Positions 54,994-64,000 of a stretch of DNA of 64,000 bases are shown here, one piece after another (position 1 is the first letter of the stretch; every line of letters begins with the position of its first letter). The position numbers and the translations under genes are program-made. The notes beneath the pieces are model-generated. The model saw nothing but the letters and a program-made list of their open reading frames with translations, made no database searches and was not told where the DNA came from. Origin of the DNA: an uncultured Bacteroidales bacterium (GTDB lineage: Bacteria; Bacteroidota; Bacteroidia; Bacteroidales; Bacteroidaceae); the NCBI GenBank assembly GCA_902787555.1, contig CADAGO010000003.1:46360-110359 (forward strand), written 5' to 3'.

Positions 54994-55100
54994 GAGAGGC
55001 TGTCCATTATACATTCTCCATCCTATTAAGCTAAACCGCAGGGATTTGCGGGTGAGCCTTTTTTCTTCGAGTGGTTCAAAAGCTGAAAGCTGTGGGTAGG

Positions 55101-55231
55101 CATCAGGGGATGTGAGTCAAGCTTGCTTGTAATCACAGACAAGGATGCTTAGACAAGAAGATGCGAAGAGCATCGGAACCACGAAGAAGTATATTTGATG
55201 TTTTTGCCTTTTTTTGTCCGCAGGCTTTTTT
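55101..55231 (+). ncRNA. Possible structured RNA within the inverted repeat
   Basis: Consecutive hairpins are possible: CATC/GATG (55101-55112), TGTGA/TCACA with inner CAAG/CTTG (55111-55137), GATGC/GCATC (55160-55174) and GCCT/AGGC with T6 (55206-55231), the last terminator-like. The last stem still pairs in the right copy, where it reads GTCT (G-U allowed). No promoter is clear. A weaker CCGCA/TGCGG hairpin stands at 55036-55051. Confidence 0.4.
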
Positions 55232-55246
55232 ATCTATTTTCGTTCA

Positions 55247-55272
55247 TTCCGACCTTTTCGATGTTTTCGGAA
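55247..55272. repeat. TTCCG...CGGAA element, copy 1
   Basis: TTCCG, 16 bases, CGGAA followed by TAAA; the interior TTTTCGATGTTTT is conserved in copies at 56988-57013 and 63821-63846. Confidence 0.75.
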
Positions 55273-55374
55273 TAAATGATACTGTCAGTAGTGAAAAATA
55301 CGGAGTTCCGTTCGTTTAGATAACTAAAAAACTAAATACTAACGACTAAGGTCTAACGTCTAACTTTTTTTTAT

Positions 55375-55382
55375 TATCTTTG
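55375..55382 (+). promoter_or_regulatory. -7 box of the ORF6N gene, at the inner end of the left repeat
   Basis: TATCTTTG preceded by GTCTAACGTCTAAC and a T-run; the same block recurs before the Fic remnant (56160-56192) and, inverted, at 63710-63735. Confidence 0.7.
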
Positions 55383-55406
55383 CAATCGAATACAATCAGT
55401 ACCAAT

Positions 55407-56072
55407 ATGAATGATATCCAGGTTATACAAAATAAGATATATGTGATACGAGGTCAGCGTGTGATGCTGGACTTCGATTTGGCAAAGATGTATGGAGTTG
55501 AGACGAAACGTTTGAACGAGGCTGTGCGACGTAACGCTCAACGGTTCGAGGGCGATGACTTTATGTTCCGTTTGACGAAGGATGAAGTTGCCTCCGTACG
55601 TTCAAGGTCGCAAATTGCTGCCATAGAAATCCCTATTGGAGATAGCCCTGAGGACGATTCCTTACGTTTGAGGTCGCAAATTGCGACCACAAACACTCAA
55701 CGTGGTGGTTCGCGATACCTCCCCTATGCATTCACGGAACTTGGTGTAGCGATGTTAAGTAGCGTATTGAGATCGGAAACAGCCATTAAAGTGAATAGAA
55801 ATATCATGAAAGCCTTCGTCACATACCGCCATTTGGCCGAACTTCCTTTGGCGGCTACTTACATCGAGTTAAAGAAGGATATAGAATCCGTCCGCAAAGA
55901 AGTCAACGATATCCTTGCCGACCAGAATGAAATCAATGAGGACACTCGTATGCAATTAGAGAACATCACTTTGGCCCTTGCCGAGTTGCAATCAAAGGAG
56001 CCAAGAGAGAAACCTCATCGCAAGATAGGTTTTGTGCAGGAGGAAGACGAAAGTCTAAAGCCTAGTGTCTAG
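55407..56072 (+). CDS. ORF6N-domain DNA-binding protein
   Basis: A 221-residue protein of the ORF6N/KilA-N-associated type, common in phages and mobile islands. The domain covers residues about 5-125 (NKIYVIRGQRVMLDFDLAKMYGVETKRLNEAVRRN, then DDFMFRLTKDE and PYAFTELGVAMLSSVL). The C-terminus is a coiled coil (SVRKEVNDILADQNEINEDTR) that may dimerise. Between the halves of the domain lies a duplicated stretch: SRSQIAA and LRSQIAT, encoded by two copies of AGGTCGCAAATTGC at 55604 and 55673. I start at ATG 55407 because the frame upstream overlaps the promoter. Probably a regulator of the island, not tested. Confidence 0.85.
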   Translation: MNDIQVIQNKIYVIRGQRVMLDFDLAKMYGVETKRLNEAVRRNAQRFEGDDFMFRLTKDEVASVRSRSQIAAIEIPIGDSPEDDSLRLRSQIATTNTQRGGSRYLPYAFTELGVAMLSSVLRSETAIKVNRNIMKAFVTYRHLAELPLAATYIELKKDIESVRKEVNDILADQNEINEDTRMQLENITLALAELQSKEPREKPHRKIGFVQEEDESLKPSV

Positions 56073-56094
56073 AGTCATTTCGACAGGCTCAAGA

Positions 56095-56178
56095 TGTATC
56101 TAAAGTCTAGAGTCTAAAGCCTAAAGTCTAAAGTCTAGAGTCTAACGTCTAGAGTCTAGAGTCTAACGTCTAACTTTT
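56095..56178. repeat. 7-bp microrepeat array (AGTCTAA/AGTCTAG)
   Basis: About eleven tandem 7-mers AGTCTAA, AGTCTAG, AGCCTAA or CGTCTAA between the ORF6N gene and the next promoter. Confidence 0.85.
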
Positions 56179-56184
56179 TTTTAT

Positions 56185-56192
56185 TATCTTTG
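56185..56192 (+). promoter_or_regulatory. -7 box before the Fic remnant
   Basis: TATCTTTG within a block almost identical to 55351-55385; it appears to be a duplicated promoter cassette. Confidence 0.6.
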
Positions 56193-56199
56193 CAAAGTA

Positions 56200-56670
56200 A
56201 AAGTAATCAAGTCACTCATACTTGGCAAACTGCATCCGTTGTTTGAGCACCTGCCAGTAGAGAACATGGTCTATGCCAACCAGCAAGCCTATTATGATGC
56301 CATCACGGCCAGCACCAACGCCGGGCAGTCAGGCCCATTCATCGACTTTATGCTGAACGAGATCTATAAGACACTGAAAGGACATCAAGGAGAGGAATTG
56401 CCAACAAATGATGCAGCTTCTATCGACCGACAATTCGGTATAATGTTCGGTGAAGAGTTCGGTATAAAGTATGGTATAAAGTTCGGTATAAATGACAAAC
56501 AACTTCTTCTCCTCATTGCCGGCAATCCTACAATTACGGCCTCTGATGCAGCAGAGCGAATGGGAATCAGCCTTCGTGGAGCAGAAAAAAAATTTAAAAA
56601 GCTAAGAGATGTTGGAGTTATAAGCAGGCAAGGCAGTAGAAAGAGTGGTTCTTGGTTAATCAACAAATAA
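56200..56670 (+). pseudogene. Fic-family protein remnant, N-terminal two thirds missing
   Basis: The frame reads LGKLHPLFEHLPVENMVYANQ, then FIDFMLNEIYKTLKGHQ, which I recognise as the region after the catalytic core of Bacteroidota Fic-family (AMPylating) proteins. The Fic motif HPFxxGNGR and everything before it are absent, so no activity is expected. A repeated FGI stretch follows (FGIMFGEEFGIKYGIKFGI), then a winged-helix-like tail (LLIAGNPTITASDAAERMGISLRGAEKKFKKL), which may still bind DNA. The break coincides with the duplicated promoter cassette, as if a repeat-mediated deletion removed the 5' end. If translated, TTG 56239 is the likely start (143 residues). Confidence 0.7.
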
Positions 56671-56702
56671 CATTCTCATTTACCATTTAACCAATAACCA
56701 GC

Positions 56703-56730
56703 CCCCCTCCGACTCCCCCTCTATGGGGAG
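56703..56730. repeat. GC-rich palindromic repeat
   Basis: Core CTCCGACTCCCCCT then ATGGGGAG; the reverse complement of the block inside pyrK. A further relative (CCTCTCTTTGAGGAGAGG) lies at 56949-56966. Confidence 0.65.
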
Positions 56731-56760
56731 ATATTTGGGAGATGGTTGCAGATGCCTCCC

Positions 56761-56936
56761 TATTATCTCCCTATTATCTCCCTATTATCTCCCTATTATC
56801 TCCCTATTATCTCCCTATTATCTCCCTATTATCTCCATATTACCTCCTTATTACCTCCTTATTACCTCCTTATTACCTCCTTATTACCTCCCTATTATCT
56901 CCATATTACCTCCTTATTACCTCCCTATTATCTCCC
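56761..56936. repeat. 11-bp minisatellite, 16 copies (TATTATCTCCC)
   Basis: Sixteen uninterrupted 11-mers, either TATTATCTCC(C/A) or TATTACCTCC(T/C). All three forward frames stay open and give the same peptide pattern (PYYLPIISLLS), so apparent proteins here are artefacts. It fills the gap before the helicase gene; the remaining bases to 57116 contain the TTCCG element (56988-57013) and ACCATT-type microrepeats. Confidence 0.95.
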
Positions 56937-57116
56937 TCCGTCCCCTTCCCTCTCTTTGAGGAGAGGGGTCGGGGGAGAGGCTGCTCATTCCGTGTTTTTC
57001 GATGTTTTCGGAATAAAAGTCAAATTTCAAATGTCAAAGGTGCCTTGAAACAGCAAAAAAACAATGTTTTTTTCATTTCAATAACCAATAACCATTCACC
57101 TTTAACCATTATTTAT

Positions 57117-57124
57117 TATCTTTG
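57117..57124 (+). promoter_or_regulatory. -7 box of the helicase-NUDIX operon
   Basis: TATCTTTG, 53 bases before the helicase ATG. A nine-codon upstream frame (ATG 57141, MNNRTVLDP, stop) lies between the box and the gene. Confidence 0.65.
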
Positions 57125-57176
57125 CAGTGAAATAACTAATATGAATAATAGAACCGTACTTGATCCTTGAATAGAT

Positions 57177-60100
57177 ATGATTGAACTTGGTTTATATGAA
57201 CAGATAATTAACAAGTTGTTTGAGGTAAAACTTGATGGGTTAGATCATCAAGAATATTTCATTGGGAAGCGTTCTATAACCAAAGAGAATGTATCAAGAT
57301 ACCTTTCTCGTTATCTCTATGAACTTTTTGAGCAAGTCTTTTCACAATTTAATCAAGATGATGAAAGTGTTCGAAATGCGATACAACTGGCAAATGATAT
57401 TATCAAGCATTTAGCTCAAAAGTTTTATATAGAGGATACCAATCTTTTATCTGTAAGAGCAGAAATCTTAACTGCTGTAGTAGATAAAACGAAGAATGAA
57501 TATCCTGACATAGCAGAACATATACAAGAGATAACTCCTTTAACGTCACTTGTTAGGAGTGCACTATTTACAGGCTCAAGCAAACAGGTTTCTTTAGAGA
57601 GCGAACTAAAACGTGAGATACAATCAGCAGACGAAATTTGTCTATTGGTTTCTTTTATCAGAAGCACAGGTATAAATCTTATTTTCAATCAGTTGCGCGA
57701 TTATACCAATAGTGGGAAATCGTTGAAAATAATAACAACGACATATATTGGTGCAACCGATTTTAATGCAATAAAAAAGCTATCAACCTTACCTAATACA
57801 GAAATAAAGATTTCTTATAATTCTTCAGTTGACAGACTGCATGCAAAATCCTATCTTTTCTTGCGAAAAACAGGATTTCATACTGCTTATGTTGGTTCTT
57901 CTAATCTGTCAGAAGCAGCATTAACAGAAGGATTAGAATGGAATGTAAAGGTAACCCAACAGGAATTGCCTCACATCATAAAAGAGATTCGACACACCTT
58001 TGAGTCATATTGGGAGAATCCTTTGTTCGAGACATTTGTATCAGGCAGGGATGATGAAAGACTAAAAGCAGCCCTTTCAGGCGTTGAGCATGAAACTATA
58101 GATTATGATGTTCTCGACCTCATAAAAGCCCATGATTATCAAGATGAAGTATTAGAGAAGCTAAAATTAGAGCGTGAGGTTTTCGGACATTATCGAAACT
58201 TAGTTGTTGCAGCAACAGGTACAGGTAAGACTGTTATTGCTGCATTCGATTACAAGAACTTCAACGAACATAATAAGCGTGCAAATTTCCTCTTTATTGC
58301 ACACAGGGAAGAGATTCTGAAACAATCGTGCAGAACATTCAGAGCTGTCTTGCAAGATGAGAATTTTGGCGATTTGTGGTACGGAGCTGTAGAACCCAAA
58401 GAATACACCCATCTTTTTGCATCGAAAGATATTCTGAATAATCGCATTGACGACTTGGATATAGCGGAAGACTTTTTTGATTATATAATATTCGACGAGG
58501 TCCATCATATTGCAGCAGACTCATATAGGAAGATATTGGACCGTTTCAAACCCAAAATACTTCTGGGTTTGACAGCTACTCCAGAACGTATGGATGGAGA
58601 AGATATTACCAAAGATTTTGATGGTAAGATATCTGCTGAAATCCGACTTGATGATGCATTAAATAATCGTCTGTTGGCACCATTCCATTATTATGGCATT
58701 ACTGATAGTGTAGATTTAAATACAGTTACTTGGAGGAGTGGAAGATATGTCATTTCAGAGCTGTCCAAAATCTATAGCGAGAACGATTTGCGAACAGGTT
58801 TAATTCTTAGAAAGGTTGAGGAGTATCTTCCAAATTATTATGATGTTCGAGCACTTTGTTTCTGCGTTGATGTAGAGCATGCCAAGAATATGGCAGCCAA
58901 ATTCCAATTGGCAGGTTTGAAGTCTGCATACCTTGTTAGCGATAATGGAGCAGAACGTGTGAAGTGGAGTAGGAGGTTAAAAGAAAAGAAGATCAACTAC
59001 CTATTTGTTGTTGACATGTTCAATGAAGGTATTGATATTCCGGAGGTAGATACAATTCTATTTTTGCGCCCTACAGAAAGTCTTACTGTTTTTTTGCAGC
59101 AGTTTGGTCGTGGACTTCGTAAAGCAGAAGGCAAAGAGTTTGTAACTATTCTTGACTTTGTAGGCCATTGTAACAAAGAATTTAATTATGCAGACCGCTT
59201 TAGAAGGCTTATAGGACGCACATCAATGGGTGTTGCAGAAGAGTTAGAGAAGGATTTTCCACATCTGCCTTTAGGTTGTCATATTACTCTCGAAAAGAAG
59301 GCAAAAGAGTATATCCTTGAAAACATAAAGGCTTCAATTGCTTCTTTCCGAAAGAATAGAGTCATAACGTGGCTCCAATCTTATAGTAGTGAAACAACAA
59401 AGCCTCTTACATTGTCTAACTTCCTTAGTTGGCGTCATATTCCAATCGAAATATTCTACAAAAATTTTACGTGGAACTCTCTGTTATTCCATGCAGGAAA
59501 AACTTATGAGCAATCAAGGTTCGAAAAAGAGCTACAACGAGCCGTTTATAAGAAGTGGCTTTCTGCAGACTCATACACATATTATTCATTTATAGAGACT
59601 CTATCCCAAAAGAGATTTAAGGTAAATGTAGAGAGTATGAATTATAAGGAGCAGCAGATGTCGTTGATGCTATACTATGATTTATTCCAAAATGCAGGAC
59701 AATATACAAGCTTGCAGGGTATGTTTAATGATCTCTCAACTGATGGCTTGTTCTGTAATGAAATGAGTGAACTTATAGTAATGTTGAAAAATAGATGTGA
59801 GGCTTATGAAAAAGAAGATAATTCTTCAATTATGAACTTCCCACTAAAACTGCATGGTGTATATACGAAAGATCAAATATTTGTAGCTATTGGAACTTCG
59901 ACGCTAAAGAAGAAATCTTCTTGTCGGGAGGGGGTAGAGAGAAATAAATCTCTCAATGTTGAAGCGATGTTTGTTGACATCATAAAAGATAGAAAAGAGG
60001 GTTCGAATACCAATTATAATGATTTTGCTATCAACGAAACCTTGTTTAATTGGGAAACTCAAAATACAGTAAGTCCAACATCTCAAGCAGGTAAAAATTA

Positions 60101-60308
60101 CATAAACCAGACTCAAACGATGCTCCTTTTTGTTCGTCAGCAAGATAGTTATCCAGAGGATAAGGGAAGGACTATGGGGTTTACATATCTTGGAGAAGTA
60201 AATCTCGTAAGATGGCAAGGTGCTAGGCCAATGGAAATTGTGTGGAGGCTAAAAACACCAATGCCAGCATCAGTATTGAATTATGCAAAACATAGAGCAG
60301 TAGGATAA
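57177..60308 (+). CDS. PLD-nuclease, SF2 helicase and DUF3427 fusion
   Basis: A 1043-residue multidomain protein. Residues about 120-285: phospholipase-D-like nuclease with H222 and K224 (RLHAKSY) and the downstream GSSNLSEAAL, a single HKD-type half-site. Residues about 330-680: superfamily 2 helicase with ATGTGKT (346-352), DEVH (440-443), TATPER, and QQFGRGLR (motif VI). Residues about 780-1040: DUF3427, an uncharacterised C-terminal domain. Such nuclease-helicase fusions are frequent in anti-phage loci. Stop and next start overlap (TAATG), coupling it to a NUDIX hydrolase. The gene is strongly AT-rich against carB, a sign of transfer. The substrate is unknown; a restriction-like role is inference. 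Confidence 0.88.
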   Translation: MIELGLYEQIINKLFEVKLDGLDHQEYFIGKRSITKENVSRYLSRYLYELFEQVFSQFNQDDESVRNAIQLANDIIKHLAQKFYIEDTNLLSVRAEILTAVVDKTKNEYPDIAEHIQEITPLTSLVRSALFTGSSKQVSLESELKREIQSADEICLLVSFIRSTGINLIFNQLRDYTNSGKSLKIITTTYIGATDFNAIKKLSTLPNTEIKISYNSSVDRLHAKSYLFLRKTGFHTAYVGSSNLSEAALTEGLEWNVKVTQQELPHIIKEIRHTFESYWENPLFETFVSGRDDERLKAALSGVEHETIDYDVLDLIKAHDYQDEVLEKLKLEREVFGHYRNLVVAATGTGKTVIAAFDYKNFNEHNKRANFLFIAHREEILKQSCRTFRAVLQDENFGDLWYGAVEPKEYTHLFASKDILNNRIDDLDIAEDFFDYIIFDEVHHIAADSYRKILDRFKPKILLGLTATPERMDGEDITKDFDGKISAEIRLDDALNNRLLAPFHYYGITDSVDLNTVTWRSGRYVISELSKIYSENDLRTGLILRKVEEYLPNYYDVRALCFCVDVEHAKNMAAKFQLAGLKSAYLVSDNGAERVKWSRRLKEKKINYLFVVDMFNEGIDIPEVDTILFLRPTESLTVFLQQFGRGLRKAEGKEFVTILDFVGHCNKEFNYADRFRRLIGRTSMGVAEELEKDFPHLPLGCHITLEKKAKEYILENIKASIASFRKNRVITWLQSYSSETTKPLTLSNFLSWRHIPIEIFYKNFTWNSLLFHAGKTYEQSRFEKELQRAVYKKWLSADSYTYYSFIETLSQKRFKVNVESMNYKEQQMSLMLYYDLFQNAGQYTSLQGMFNDLSTDGLFCNEMSELIVMLKNRCEAYEKEDNSSIMNFPLKLHGVYTKDQIFVAIGTSTLKKKSSCREGVERNKSLNVEAMFVDIIKDRKEGSNTNYNDFAINETLFNWETQNTVSPTSQAGKNYINQTQTMLLFVRQQDSYPEDKGRTMGFTYLGEVNLVRWQGARPMEIVWRLKTPMPASVLNYAKHRAVG

Positions 60309-60700
60309 TGAAACACATAGAAGTAGTAGCAGCAATAATCCGCAAGGATGATAAGATTTTCGCTACACAGCGTGGATATGGCGATTTTAAGGATTGGTGG
60401 GAATTTCCTGGCGGAAAGCTGGAAGTGGGGGAGACTCCTGAAGAAGCGTTGAAACGCGAGATACAAGAAGAACTGTCAACAGAAATTAGTGTGGATAAGT
60501 TCCTTTGTACAGTAGATTATGACTATCCTCAGTTCCATCTTACGATGCATTGTTATTTCTGTTCTTTGCTGACAGAAGCTTTGCATCTAAATGAGCATGA
60601 AGCAGCCAAATGGCTCTCAAAAGACGAACTGAAAAGCGTTAAGTGGCTGCCTGCAGATTTGGAAGTTGTGAACCAAATCCTATACCTAAGAACTAAATAA
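60308..60700 (+). CDS. NUDIX hydrolase (MutT/8-oxo-dGTPase-like)
   Basis: A 130-residue protein with the full Nudix box: G36, E42, R50, E51, E54 and E55 in GGKLEVGETPEEALKREIQEE. The remainder (HIEVVAAIIRKDDKIFATQRGYGDFKDWWEFPGG) is typical of MutT-like (deoxy)nucleoside triphosphate pyrophosphohydrolases. Its start overlaps the helicase stop by one base, so the two proteins are made together; NUDIX partners of DUF3427 helicases may clean nucleotides or process a signal. A general house-cleaning role is equally possible. Confidence 0.92.
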   Translation: MKHIEVVAAIIRKDDKIFATQRGYGDFKDWWEFPGGKLEVGETPEEALKREIQEELSTEISVDKFLCTVDYDYPQFHLTMHCYFCSLLTEALHLNEHEAAKWLSKDELKSVKWLPADLEVVNQILYLRTK

Positions 60701-60720
60701 TCCTTCTAGCATACATTAAC

Positions 60721-60741
60721 TAACAGTTGTGCCCGACACGA
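60721..60741 (+). repeat. 21-bp direct repeat, left copy
   Basis: Core AACAGTTGTGCCCGACACGA preceded by T; perfect match with 63466-63486. It flanks the four-gene cassette. The rest of 60742-60866 carries a GGTACT-rich palindrome (GGGGTACTAAGTACACCC region at 60796-60813) and no gene. Confidence 0.85.
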
Positions 60742-60866
60742 ATTAGGGTAGAAGAATATGATTGCCTGATAGCTTTGGGGATGGTACTAGTAGGGGTACT
60801 AAGTACACCCTAGACTATGCCAAAGAAAAGAATAAGCCAATTAAAATAGTAGAAATCTAAAATTTA

Positions 60867-61262
60867 ATGTTTATGGCTACTTGGTTAGCATTTGCACAAA
60901 GAAAACATTGTCATCACAGAGAAGCATTGCTAAATCTGGGTTACATCAATTGGACTATGTATCGTACCAACTTTAAGGTTGGTGATATTGTTTATCTCTT
61001 TATGTCTGATGAGAGAAGGTTATGTTTTATGACAAAAGTGGTTGCAAAAGATTGTGATAGGACTGATATATCTTACTGGCAAATCCAACCAAATATGCAC
61101 TTTATGTATAAGTTAGATTTGGTGAAAGAATATAATGGTGACAAACTAACTGAGGAAGAACTGACAAAACACGGTTTCAAAGGTGGAAAAAGTCTTCAGC
61201 ATCCAATAAAGAACAATGAAGAACTGTTGAAGTACATTGATGAAGTGTTTGATGAAGAATAA
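60867..61262 (+). CDS. Small PUA/EVE-like protein, probable nucleic-acid reader
   Basis: A 131-residue protein. The pattern TWLAFAQRKHC, then NFKVGDIVYLFMSDERRLCFMTKVVAKDC and the acidic end resembles the barrel of EVE/PUA-like domains, which read modified bases in many restriction systems. No catalytic residues are visible. First gene of the nuclease cassette; the PD-(D/E)XK gene begins 19 bases downstream. Assignment is by fold impression only. Confidence 0.55.
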   Translation: MFMATWLAFAQRKHCHHREALLNLGYINWTMYRTNFKVGDIVYLFMSDERRLCFMTKVVAKDCDRTDISYWQIQPNMHFMYKLDLVKEYNGDKLTEEELTKHGFKGGKSLQHPIKNNEELLKYIDEVFDEE

Positions 61263-61281
61263 ATCAATAATACCTAACCAT

Positions 61282-62283
61282 ATGGAGAAAATAGCAAGAT
61301 TGTGTTGGAACACAAAAGAATGGAGAAGGCCTTCAGGACGGAGGGGGAAATCGGTAATGAAAGAATCCTATGAAAATGAAAATGGTTTTGGTCATGAAGA
61401 ATGGTTGCTAGACGATTCGAAGATCATGCCAGATGGATATCATTATGGGTTTCTGGAGCAGCTGAGAGTCAAAAGTAAAATACATCATGGGAAAGCTTAT
61501 GATATTCATCTCTACACATTTAGTCCTACTAGACAATGGGTTTACATTGGTTGCCTAAAGAAGGCAATAGGGGTGTCGACCGCAGAGAGCGAAAAGGTCT
61601 ATGACTATTATGAGAAGATGGGGTGGATTGAGGATATGAGAAAAGATGTTCTATATGCAAAAGGAACTGTCAAGGATTTCACTGCCGCATTTATGTTTAA
61701 CGTGAAATTTAAGTTTGAGAACGCAGTAATTAACTATTCCAACCAACCTATTCTTTCAAAAGGGAGCATTCCTTCGCCCAGATATAATTTAATGGATAAA
61801 AAACGGAGTTTTGAGTTTGAAAAGGACGAGGATGGAAATGTCAAGGTGTTAGATACCAGCATATTTGAACGTATGGTTGAAGGCGGTATGATTCAGATAG
61901 ATCCTTTGCATAAAAAGATTCAGAATGCGGTTTCTGAGATACTGAAAGGACAATACACAAAAATACAGTTAGAAACAAATCCTGAAGATGCCGAAGATCA
62001 AAGAATCGATATAAAGGGCTTTTCAAAGAAAGAGCAGGAGTGGCATTTTTTTGAAGTAAAGACCGTATCTGCGAAAAGATGCATTCGTGAGGCCCTAGGG
62101 CAAATACTTGAATATGCACATTATCCCAATGTGAATCGTGCTAAAAAGTTCTTTATTATAGGTCCGGAGCCGCCAGACGAAAATGATAAGGCATATATGC
62201 AGCTGTTACGTAATACATACAAAATGCCTATATGGTTCAGATGGTATTCTTTTAAAGAGAATAAGTTGCATGAGGGAGTGTGA
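61282..62283 (+). CDS. Putative PD-(D/E)XK restriction endonuclease
   Basis: A 333-residue protein with ATG at 61282 (MEKIARLCWNTKEW); the frame upstream overlaps the previous gene and is less likely. The N-terminal region (CWNTKEWRRPSGR, NGFGHEEWLLD) is a conserved block of restriction-type proteins, followed by DIHLYTFSPTRQWVYIG, perhaps a reader domain. The C-terminal region (residues 225-290) carries a PD-(D/E)XK site: D243 (IDIKG) and E258-V-K260 (FFEVKT), then a helix with REALGQILEYAHY. Together with the EVE-like and NERD genes it looks like a modification-dependent restriction module. No methyltransferase is nearby. Confidence 0.75.
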   Translation: MEKIARLCWNTKEWRRPSGRRGKSVMKESYENENGFGHEEWLLDDSKIMPDGYHYGFLEQLRVKSKIHHGKAYDIHLYTFSPTRQWVYIGCLKKAIGVSTAESEKVYDYYEKMGWIEDMRKDVLYAKGTVKDFTAAFMFNVKFKFENAVINYSNQPILSKGSIPSPRYNLMDKKRSFEFEKDEDGNVKVLDTSIFERMVEGGMIQIDPLHKKIQNAVSEILKGQYTKIQLETNPEDAEDQRIDIKGFSKKEQEWHFFEVKTVSAKRCIREALGQILEYAHYPNVNRAKKFFIIGPEPPDENDKAYMQLLRNTYKMPIWFRWYSFKENKLHEGV

Positions 62284-62317
62284 TTACTAATAAGAAATTC
62301 TTAAAAACAGATGGAAC

Positions 62318-62677
62318 ATGAAACTTACAAAAGCAACAACAGAGTTAATATGTGAATTAGAGTATATCATAGGTAGCCAATGTTACAACCCAAATTCCCT
62401 TAATGGATACACATGGGAGGAGGGATTAGAGTTTAGATACCCTGTTTCTTATGTAAATAAAAACGGTGAAGATACAAGAACCCGATATATAATCGATGAT
62501 ATCAATAAATCTAAGATAGGTTCCATTAGATACAAATTTGGCTCTAACCATCTTTATATTGGAGAAGCCATTAAACAGGCATTAGAGTATATTGAGGATA
62601 AATATGACCTTGATTTCAACGAATTGACAAAGGGAAAAAAACAGTCAAGGGACAGGAACTATGATTCACTTTTATAG
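62318..62677 (+). CDS. Small protein of unknown function
   Basis: A 119-residue soluble protein (LTKATTELICELEYIIGSQCYNPNS, then RYPVSYVNKNG, IGSIRYKFGSNHLYIGEAIKQALEYIE). It is acidic-basic mixed, with an alpha-beta pattern and no motif I recognise. It sits 34 bases after the nuclease gene and 12 before the NERD gene, so it is likely part of the same unit. It could be a structural partner or immunity factor; the sequence does not decide. Confidence 0.7.
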   Translation: MKLTKATTELICELEYIIGSQCYNPNSLNGYTWEEGLEFRYPVSYVNKNGEDTRTRYIIDDINKSKIGSIRYKFGSNHLYIGEAIKQALEYIEDKYDLDFNELTKGKKQSRDRNYDSLL

Positions 62678-62689
62678 TTAATTGCTTGG

Positions 62690-63442
62690 ATGAAGACGGA
62701 ATTGGCTATTGTAATACTAGGAATTCTATTCTTGATTTTGCTGTTTCTTATTATAAGGTACGGCACATGGGTTACTCGAGGAGAACGGGGAGAAATATTA
62801 GTATCTAAGAAATTACATTCTTTAGGCATTCATTATATTGTGCTTGACGATTTACTGATAAGAGGTGTTCATGGAGATACTCAAATAGACCATGTAGTTG
62901 TATCACCATTCGGAGTTTTCGTCATAGAGACGAAATGCTGGAAAGGGTGGATTACAGGTGGAGAGAATGCCGGTCAATGGTGCCAGACACTCTATCGAGA
63001 GAAATACGATAAGCCTAATCCCATATTCCAGAATAAAGTTCATGAGGAAGCAGTAAAACGAGCACTAAAGGAGTATGGAGACATCTTTACTGTACCCATT
63101 GTGGTAATTGTTGATTGTGATAGACTGAAAGTTAAAACCAATCATATAGTAATCCTGTATCAAAACCTAAAAGACGAAATACGGAGTTTTACCAGAATCA
63201 TTTATTCCGATGATCAGTGTGAAAAGATGGCTTTAACTCTTCAAGGCTTATCATCTGATGATAAAGAAAGGAGAGAGCAACATATTCAGAAGGTAAAATC
63301 ATTCCAAGCATCTACACAAGCAAAAATAGAGAATGGTATTTGTCCAAGATGTGGCGGTCAGCTAGTGTTAAGGGAAGGTCGTTATGGCCGTTTTTATGGC
63401 TGCTCAAATTATCCTATTTGTAAATTTATATCAAACATATAG
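62690..63442 (+). CDS. Membrane-anchored NERD nuclease-like protein with zinc ribbon
   Basis: A 250-residue protein with an N-terminal membrane helix (LAIVILGILFLILLFLII). Residues about 30-140 form the NERD (nuclease-related) domain: ERGE, then D67 in QIDHVVV and E80-T-K82 in FVIETK, the residues expected of a nuclease site. The C-terminal 35 residues form a topoisomerase-type zinc ribbon (CPRCGG, GRFYGCSNYPICKF). The membrane tether plus nuclease layout fits a defence or DNA-uptake role. Last gene of the cassette; the right direct repeat follows 23 bases after the stop. Confidence 0.85.
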   Translation: MKTELAIVILGILFLILLFLIIRYGTWVTRGERGEILVSKKLHSLGIHYIVLDDLLIRGVHGDTQIDHVVVSPFGVFVIETKCWKGWITGGENAGQWCQTLYREKYDKPNPIFQNKVHEEAVKRALKEYGDIFTVPIVVIVDCDRLKVKTNHIVILYQNLKDEIRSFTRIIYSDDQCEKMALTLQGLSSDDKERREQHIQKVKSFQASTQAKIENGICPRCGGQLVLREGRYGRFYGCSNYPICKFISNI

Positions 63443-63465
63443 TGAACTTTGATTCATTTAACCAA

Positions 63466-63486
63466 TAACAGTTGTGCCCGACACGA
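63466..63486 (+). repeat. 21-bp direct repeat, right copy
   Basis: Identical to 60721-60741 and in the same orientation; sequences diverge immediately outside. Followed by a GTTTAC(C/T/G) 7-mer microrepeat at 63491-63519. Confidence 0.85.
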
Positions 63487-63631
63487 CAAGAGTTTACCGT
63501 TTACTGTTTACGGTTTAGAGGTTCAAAGGGTAAGAAACAACCTGCGTCTATCTTTGCAGCCACTTGTTAAAAATAATCAAGCAAAGGGTTTGAGACATTT
63601 GAGAATGATGAACTGAGCATCTTGGCAAAAC

Positions 63632-63703
63632 AAAATCCCCCCTGAGCTTCGCAGCGGAGGGGGGGATTACTAACTGAGTCATAACAAAATTATGACGATA
63701 AAT
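63632..63703 (-). ncRNA. Possible small RNA with its own promoter and terminator
   Basis: On the minus strand, TACCTTTG (63710-63717) is followed by about 72 bases with two hairpins: GTCATAA/TTATGAC (63678-63696) and a long GC-rich stem (AATCCCCCC with GGGGGGATT, 63634-63668), then TTTTGTTTTG. No credible long protein is encoded: a 34-codon frame starts at an ATG within the first hairpin. This terminator could also only shield the cassette from antisense transcription. Confidence 0.5.
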
Positions 63704-63706
63704 CCT

Positions 63707-64000
63707 TTGCAAAGGTAAGAAAAAAAAGTCAGACGTTAGACTTTAGTCGTTAATTTTTAGTTTTTGGGGTTATCTAAACGAACGGAACTCCGTATTTTTC
63801 ACTACTGACAGTGTCATTTATTCCGAAAACATCGAAAAGCACGGAAAGGACAAAAATAGATAAAAAAGCCTGCGGACAAAAAGAGACAAAAGCATCAAAT
63901 ATACTTCTTCGTGGTTCCGATGCTCTTCGCATCTTCTTGTCTAAGCATCCCTGTCTGTGATTACAAGCAAGCTTGACTCACATCCCCTGATGCCTACCCA
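63707..64000 (-). repeat. Right copy of the large inverted repeat (continues past the window)
   Basis: Inverted counterpart of 55093-55385, still matching at the window edge, so the true length is longer than 294 bases. Its promoter end faces inward, as in the left copy. It includes the third TTCCG...CGGAA element (63821-63846). Confidence 0.9.

Follow-up and report, generated by a model that had tools for sequence, protein, structure and literature searches.

What is the long inverted repeat that encloses an AT-rich block of accessory genes 3' of carB in an uncultured Bacteroidales bacterium, and could it act, as a first-pass annotation of the sequence had proposed, as a large phase switch operated by inversion? 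The stretch of DNA analysed here (the window) is 64,000 nucleotides long and covers positions 46360-110359 of contig C3 (110359 bases) in the organism's own draft assembly (G000; 2.69 Mb, 55 contigs, 82% complete). Our best explanation, which we hold to be probable as a whole, is that the repeat is a composite intergenic sequence present in two copies that face inward, and that its outer 125 bases belong to class I of an undescribed, dispersed family of cloverleaf-folding sequences. We infer that these sequences are mobile repeats resembling miniature inverted-repeat transposable elements (MITEs), that the accessory genes beside carB represent an ordinary insertion at a variable spot, and that inversion of the island would be nearly silent in function.

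The two copies (55093-55385 and, inverted, 63707-64000) are identical in 275 of 294 columns of a global alignment that has one gap column and in which the longest exact run measures 58 bases, in agreement with the annotated description of inverted copies of about 293 bases without large gaps. They comprise two pairs of inverted arms, 55093-55331 with 63762-64000 (95% identity) and 55327-55385 with 63707-63765 (90%). At both inner ends lies an inward-facing TAnnTTTG (TATCTTTG at 55375-55382 on the plus strand, TACCTTTG at 63710-63717 on the minus strand), a promoter motif of the Bacteroidetes type; this too had been annotated correctly. The annotation has the repeat run past the window edge, but the contig itself ends with the window at base 64000 and cuts the right copy, so that the outer right boundary is not definable and the repeat cannot be extended in this assembly.

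The outer part of each copy belongs to a unit that we term a cassette. Two models describe such cassettes, R1 for class I and R2 derived from nine cassettes of class II, all of them from the sister genome G007 (JAFZYE, RGIG8205, from water buffalo rumen). The composite repeat is made up of the following parts.

55065-55189, plus strand: left class I cloverleaf cassette (143.4 bits with R1, of whose training set it is a member; E 5e-4 with R2)
55190-55206, plus strand: AT-rich link TATATTTGATGTTTTTG, 3' of the cassette, resembling TATTTTTNATNTTTTTG of G007
55210-55234, plus strand: module B, a short hairpin with a T tract (GTCCGCAGGCTTTTTT); a similar module occurs at G007 loci
55244-55276, plus strand: module C, an imperfect palindrome (ATTCCGA..TCGGAAT), seen again at 56985-57017
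55331-55385, plus strand: heptad-like repeats with the TAnnTTTG motif (TATCTTTG, 55375-55382), 5' of the ORF6N gene
63707-64000, minus strand: right inverted copy of the 293-base unit, truncated by the contig end
63902-64000, minus strand: right class I cassette (R1 model positions 27-126), its 5' part absent at the contig end

The window cassette has a P1 stem with the ends CTTCGAGTGGTTC and GAACCACGAAGAAG, a small hairpin (P2), a long arm (P3) with the tip CAAG-CTTG-CTTG, and a hairpin (P4). In class I copies generally, P1 closes a junction that holds the small hairpin, the long arm and the second hairpin, giving a four-way junction. The minimum-energy shape is this cloverleaf ([[][][]]) in 31 of 33 cassettes, compared with 146 of 1980 shuffled sequences (7.4%). 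In 32 of 33 cassettes the strand taken as sense folds more stably than its complement, a count that is partly circular, the sense strand of classes II, V and VII having been chosen with folding energies in view; in classes I and IV together it is the more stable in all 17. Members of one class are related to each other, and the independent units are the classes.

Pairing is maintained between classes by compensating changes. R2 recovers class I cassettes that it had not seen, among them the one at 55065-55189. The R2 alignment was reduced to one strand per place, which left 24 sense rows after 11 of 35 rows (10 antisense duplicates and a second entry for one G007 copy) had been removed. Of its 1085 cells, 988 are paired, and pair-keeping changes on both sides occur at 42 of 47 pairs; with the 3' letters shuffled, this number averages 22.5 and never exceeds 28, and the paired fraction falls to 0.31-0.40 when partners are slid. 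Two cautions apply to these figures: fitting the alignment to the model favours pairing, and the shuffles ignore kinship, although both controls still lie far below the observed values. Cross-class MAFFT alignments (A3-A5), which misplace the 3' arm, were excluded from the pair counts, and a table of cassettes based on regular expressions was left unused as too loose, palindromes matching on both strands. Within a class, pairing is 100% by construction, the helices having been taken from the folds, and only the contrast with the swapped strand is informative there. The four-way-junction fold is kept by compensating changes across seven sequence classes, of which V-VII look related, and across genera. 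To our knowledge, such conservation is unusual for a dispersed intergenic repeat. Rfam yielded no cassette match above the gathering score, and only tRNAs beside cassettes exceeded the threshold.

Copies are dispersed and unevenly distributed. With a 366-base query, 29 matches were obtained in G007 and two in G013 (CADBSN, RUG14251); ten of those in G007 cover most of a core of about 147 bases (roughly 55059-55206), and one is a cut copy. Only two full copies of the repeat were found in G000, where five other places match fragments of 24-42 bases. The annotation had allowed that many dispersed copies, with no reads of inverted orientation, would reduce the pair to random members of a family. 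The dispersal holds by half: the outer half recurs in ten near-full copies in G007, and two full copies of the repeat were found in the draft genome G000. A pattern search returned 12 stretches, eight from G007 and two from G013; the remaining two (L040 and L041), from other phyla, match neither R2 nor R1 and were rejected as chance pattern matches. R2 matches 16 of 301 genomes of the bacterial family, in five genera, 11 candidates per genome having been scored among the matches listed, with seven matches in G255 and eight in G266. R1 matches four of the 301, and G059 adds a sixth genus. G007 also holds further cassette classes that differ in sequence and share the layout, mostly with lengths of 122-128 nucleotides; they are followed by the TATTTTTNATNTTTTTG link, which has 19 matches in G007, versus none for a backward control. 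DNA searches and exact patterns gave no cassette match in phages, plasmids or viral contigs. The cassettes accordingly occur, as MITEs do, in multiple dispersed non-coding copies with inverted ends, the P1 ends pairing with each other.

Cassettes often stand in pairs. By the lower-energy strand, 16 of 22 neighbouring pairs tabulated by hand are divergent. When types I and II are called alpha and types III, IV and V beta, the six tabulated G007 pairs besides L232 join an alpha cassette (I or II) with III, IV or V, and those of G285, G170 and most of G266 join a II-like with a V-like cassette; in L156 of G266 two alpha cassettes are paired, and in L023 of G007 a class I cassette lies beside a class II remnant. 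Several G007 loci show, outward of the cassettes, the link, a short T-tract hairpin and the END motif CTAAACACAGGTTTTTACCAGTGAGCC; with at most four substitutions allowed, this motif flanks L018 and L022 on either side in inverted orientation. The two window cassettes share 179 bases past the link that the G007 copies are without. The cassettes probably behave as MITE-type mobile repeats in which the folded ends would be the conserved part; outside the window, members of the family stand mostly in divergent pairs, typically of an alpha and a beta cassette, with AT-rich links.

The carB neighbourhood differs between relatives. In five (G004, G006, G007, G012 and G013) of ten relatives from which carB-downstream stretches were taken, the next genes are the same, one of them resembling pepD (named by eye), and G013 has about 2 kb with cassettes and HicA/HicB-like open reading frames (ORFs; named by eye) between carB and these genes. 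Cassettes are thus present in some genomes and absent from others at one orthologous spot: the 3' side of carB is occupied by the class I cassette in G000 and by two other cassettes in G013. A class-blind scan detected no cassette in the carB-downstream stretches of G004, G006, G007 and G012, in three of which the next gene begins within about 105 bases of carB. Because the relatives differ in this way, with shared next genes and about 2 kb of intervening sequence in G013, the 3' side of carB is a variable spot, and the accessory genes there are probably an ordinary insertion of restriction or defence genes. The pepD-like gene, which would be the expected right neighbour of the island, was not found in the G000 assembly. 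At locus L023 of G007, a NUDIX gene (1047-1454) is followed by a class I cassette (1508-1631); its match to the island NUDIX is 86% identical over 124 amino acids, and the cassette has the same relative orientation. No restriction-enzyme match was found in G007 at E <= 1e-50.

Several observations count against a family of MITE-like elements, in addition to the caveat on covariation given above. The flanks of the loci read are T-rich and similar on both sides, and neither a target-site duplication nor a clean empty site was found at them. No transposase was noticed by eye beside the cassettes read. Six of the 22 tabulated pairs are not divergent, and the two window cassettes face inward, with no partner visible. 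A looser class-blind scan gave one match 2.5 kb into the G006 carB stretch, which we take as coding background. Finally, expression data could make the cassettes RNAs instead.

That last point leads to the main rival explanation, according to which each cassette encodes a member of a family of structured non-coding RNAs, with transcription often running divergently from spacer promoters, and these RNAs serve the cell as regulators or as the RNA partner of a protein. We consider it possible and clearly less probable than a MITE-like origin. The strong covariation on one strand and the greater stability of the read strand in every class I and IV cassette would be expected of such genes, and TATCTTTG is found directly 5' of the G013 class I cassettes and T tracts 3' of cassettes. 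A folded end of single-stranded DNA, however, would give the same covariation, and the copies are dispersed and patchy (the 16 of 301 genomes above), and the loci read show no constant set of neighbouring genes; moreover, the carB spot is not alike in G000, G007 and G013.

The genes and signals between the two copies are as follows.

55408-56072, plus strand: ORF6N-domain gene (PADLOC PDC-S05)
56239-56670, plus strand: winged helix-turn-helix ORF, apparently the C-terminal remnant of a Fic-type (SoFic) protein
57117-57124, plus strand: promoter-like motif TATCTTTG, 5' of the restriction gene and within the island
57177-60308, plus strand: SauUSI-like type IV restriction enzyme with PLD nuclease, ResIII helicase and DUF3427 (PADLOC mREase_IV, 5.8e-213)
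60308-60700, plus strand: NUDIX hydrolase (PADLOC PDC-S07)
60721-60741 and 63466-63486, plus strand: 21-base direct repeat TAACAGTTGTGCCCGACACGA, bracketing the nested block
60867-63442, plus strand: nested four-ORF block, three ORFs without assigned family followed by a NERD/Zn-ribbon gene
60867-61262, 61237-62283 and 62318-62677, plus strand: the three ORFs without assigned family, the last of 119 amino acids
62690-63442, plus strand: NERD/Zn-ribbon gene
63634-63668, minus strand: terminator-like hairpin AATCCCCCC..GGGGGGATTTTGTTTT, opposing the right inward motif

The annotated AT-rich accessory island 3' of carB, bounded by inverted repeats, is borne out by a GC content of 38% for 55386-63706 versus 52.9% for carB and by genes of defence type. 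SauUSI combines PLD, helicase and DUF3427 domains, and in the island enzyme the PLD nuclease, an SF2 helicase and DUF3427 all lie in one chain, so that by its domains it is a SauUSI-like, putative type IV restriction enzyme. Its best PDB match is 7clg_A, titled 'Putative helicase', which we take to be SauUSI; the enzyme is a relative of SauUSI in sequence only, and it adjoins a NUDIX gene. The ORF6N protein has relatives among phage anti-repressors, and the remaining PHROG matches are mainly to helicase, NUDIX and unknown families. No recombinase family was detected among the eight island ORFs, to which the scans were confined.

Minor repeats were also recorded in this region. A 19-base core of TAACAGTTGTGCCCGACACGA (at most two mismatches) occurs twice in G000, with one copy in G004 and one in G006, and is absent from the remaining 14 genomes of the genus that were searched; the G006 copy lies upstream of a homologue of the window gene 61237-62283. 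A minisatellite at 56756-56937 (11-base unit CTCCCTATTAT, 16.5 copies) lies 5' of the restriction gene's promoter-like motif, and its length could vary. The heptad TCTAAAG is repeated in tandem at 56099-56173 (10.7 copies), and similar heptads occur in spacers of G007 cassette pairs.

The two inward-facing cassettes might be the ends of a composite mobile unit that brought the defence genes to the carB spot, which we consider unlikely. It would agree with the finding of only two full copies in 2.69 Mb, which lie 9 kb apart, inverted, and have 196 bases in common beyond the cassette, as well as with the NUDIX gene followed by a similarly oriented class I cassette in G007 and the cassettes and HicA/HicB-like ORFs at the carB spot of G013. 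Most pairs elsewhere, however, face outward from their spacer, so that the island would be on the other side; in addition, the contig end hides any target duplication, and the pepD-like right neighbour is not in the assembly.

A bolder proposal, which we rate as no less doubtful, is a new class of mobile element with two distinct cloverleaf ends (alpha and beta), the autonomous form of which would carry a GxxExxY protein with a PDDEXK nuclease fold that recognises or cuts the folded ends; the window repeats would then be decayed alpha ends. A gene of this family (TIGR04256/PF13366, PDDEXK_3) lies in the spacer between cassettes at three loci, two in G255 and one in G266; in L155 and L156 the cassettes on both sides are outward-facing cloverleafs, and one of the two G255 genes is truncated beside a beta-like cassette (read by eye). 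A further G266 GxxExxY gene lies about 130 bases from a cassette. PF13366 was found in 13 of the 16 R2-positive genomes versus 116 of 301 overall, a comparison uncorrected for kinship, and it gave no match in G000, G004, G013 and G239, in which cassettes are present. The 30 top GxxExxY loci, all from genomes without R2 matches, contained no R2 match, and 20 more, 10 of them from R2-positive genomes, contained one weak match (E 0.053, in G266). A class-blind scan of these 50 loci gave 10 matches in 181,418 bases (0.055 per kb), compared with six in 198,438 bases of control (0.030 per kb), one of the six being a real G013 cassette. The wider sample does not support GxxExxY as a general cassette partner. 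Should the link nevertheless hold, a protein family present in more than a third of the sampled genomes, and named in only two papers of the literature searched, would gain a role open to testing.

The large invertible phase switch is very unlikely. The long inverted repeat with its 58-base exact run would in principle suffice for homologous recombination, and the window repeats may recombine with each other. Both arms, however, carry the same inward motif, so that inversion leaves ORF6N beside an equivalent motif: in either orientation ORF6N would face one motif and the NERD end the other, and the linkage of promoters to genes appears unaltered, as far as the anatomy of the island indicates. 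Within the island, a separate promoter-like TATCTTTG (57117-57124) precedes the restriction and NUDIX genes; some 45-80 nucleotides downstream of the right inward motif, the path is crossed by a GC-rich hairpin that has a T tract (a hairpin not listed by a simple terminator scan); and scans of the eight island ORFs gave no recombinase family. The inverted repeat is thus unlikely, judging from these motifs, to act as a genetic on/off switch, and we infer that inversion of the island, should the repeats recombine, would be functionally near-silent with such symmetric promoter motifs; the annotated switch is not borne out, and pursuing it would have misdirected effort. Least credible of all is an assembly artefact in which the contig end was folded back, since the repeat does coincide with the contig end but 19 of the 294 columns differ between the copies, and these lie scattered over most of the alignment. 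Where assemblies of these bacteria break into contigs or seem to contain inverted islands, repeats of the cassette type may sometimes be the cause.

In the literature searched, as far as the sources were available to us, no paper names the cassette family, which may sit unnamed among the candidates of a human-microbiome screen (PMC8040213). That report describes palindromic structured-RNA candidates of 80-132 bases from Bacteroidetes, which the cassettes resemble by description.

Like REP (repetitive extragenic palindromic) sequences and REPINs with their RAYTs (REP-associated tyrosine transposases; PMC3733652 and PMC6006769), the cassettes are dispersed extragenic palindromes that may be processed as folded single strands; unlike these, they are much longer and four-armed. 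An origin from RAYT/REP was rejected, as the palindromes beside the RAYT genes in G007 and G004 are of other kinds. A retron-like or integron-attC-like nature was likewise set aside, having been weighed on motifs only. Five Y1 loci contained no class I end motif or GATGC hairpin, and one AT-rich link-like match was found in L099; other cassette classes were sought at Y1 loci only by a class-blind scan of L095-L104. G000 has no Y1_Tnp match. At L096 and L097, RAYT-type Y1 genes are flanked by GCCCCAAAGGGGCGA-like palindromes in what looks like an ordinary REP/RAYT arrangement.

The nearest analogue of the cassette family appears to be the BrickBuilt MITE of Porphyromonas gingivalis, which, according to the part of the report seen (PMC4596501), is intergenic, has 19 copies in one strain, inverted ends and internal tandem repeats, and shows a predicted secondary structure, no Rfam match and promoter activity. 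The cassettes share with BrickBuilt and other P. gingivalis MITEs, so far as described there, the occurrence in Bacteroidales, the intergenic location, the inverted ends, the predicted fold and the lack of an Rfam match. They differ from BrickBuilt, the ends of which are 12 bases long and match IS5-family elements and the tandem repeats of which are of 23 bases (PMC4596501). No matching insertion sequence was found for the cassettes, though no systematic search for insertion sequences was made; unlike those of BrickBuilt, their ends are cloverleafs of 125 nucleotides that covary across genera.

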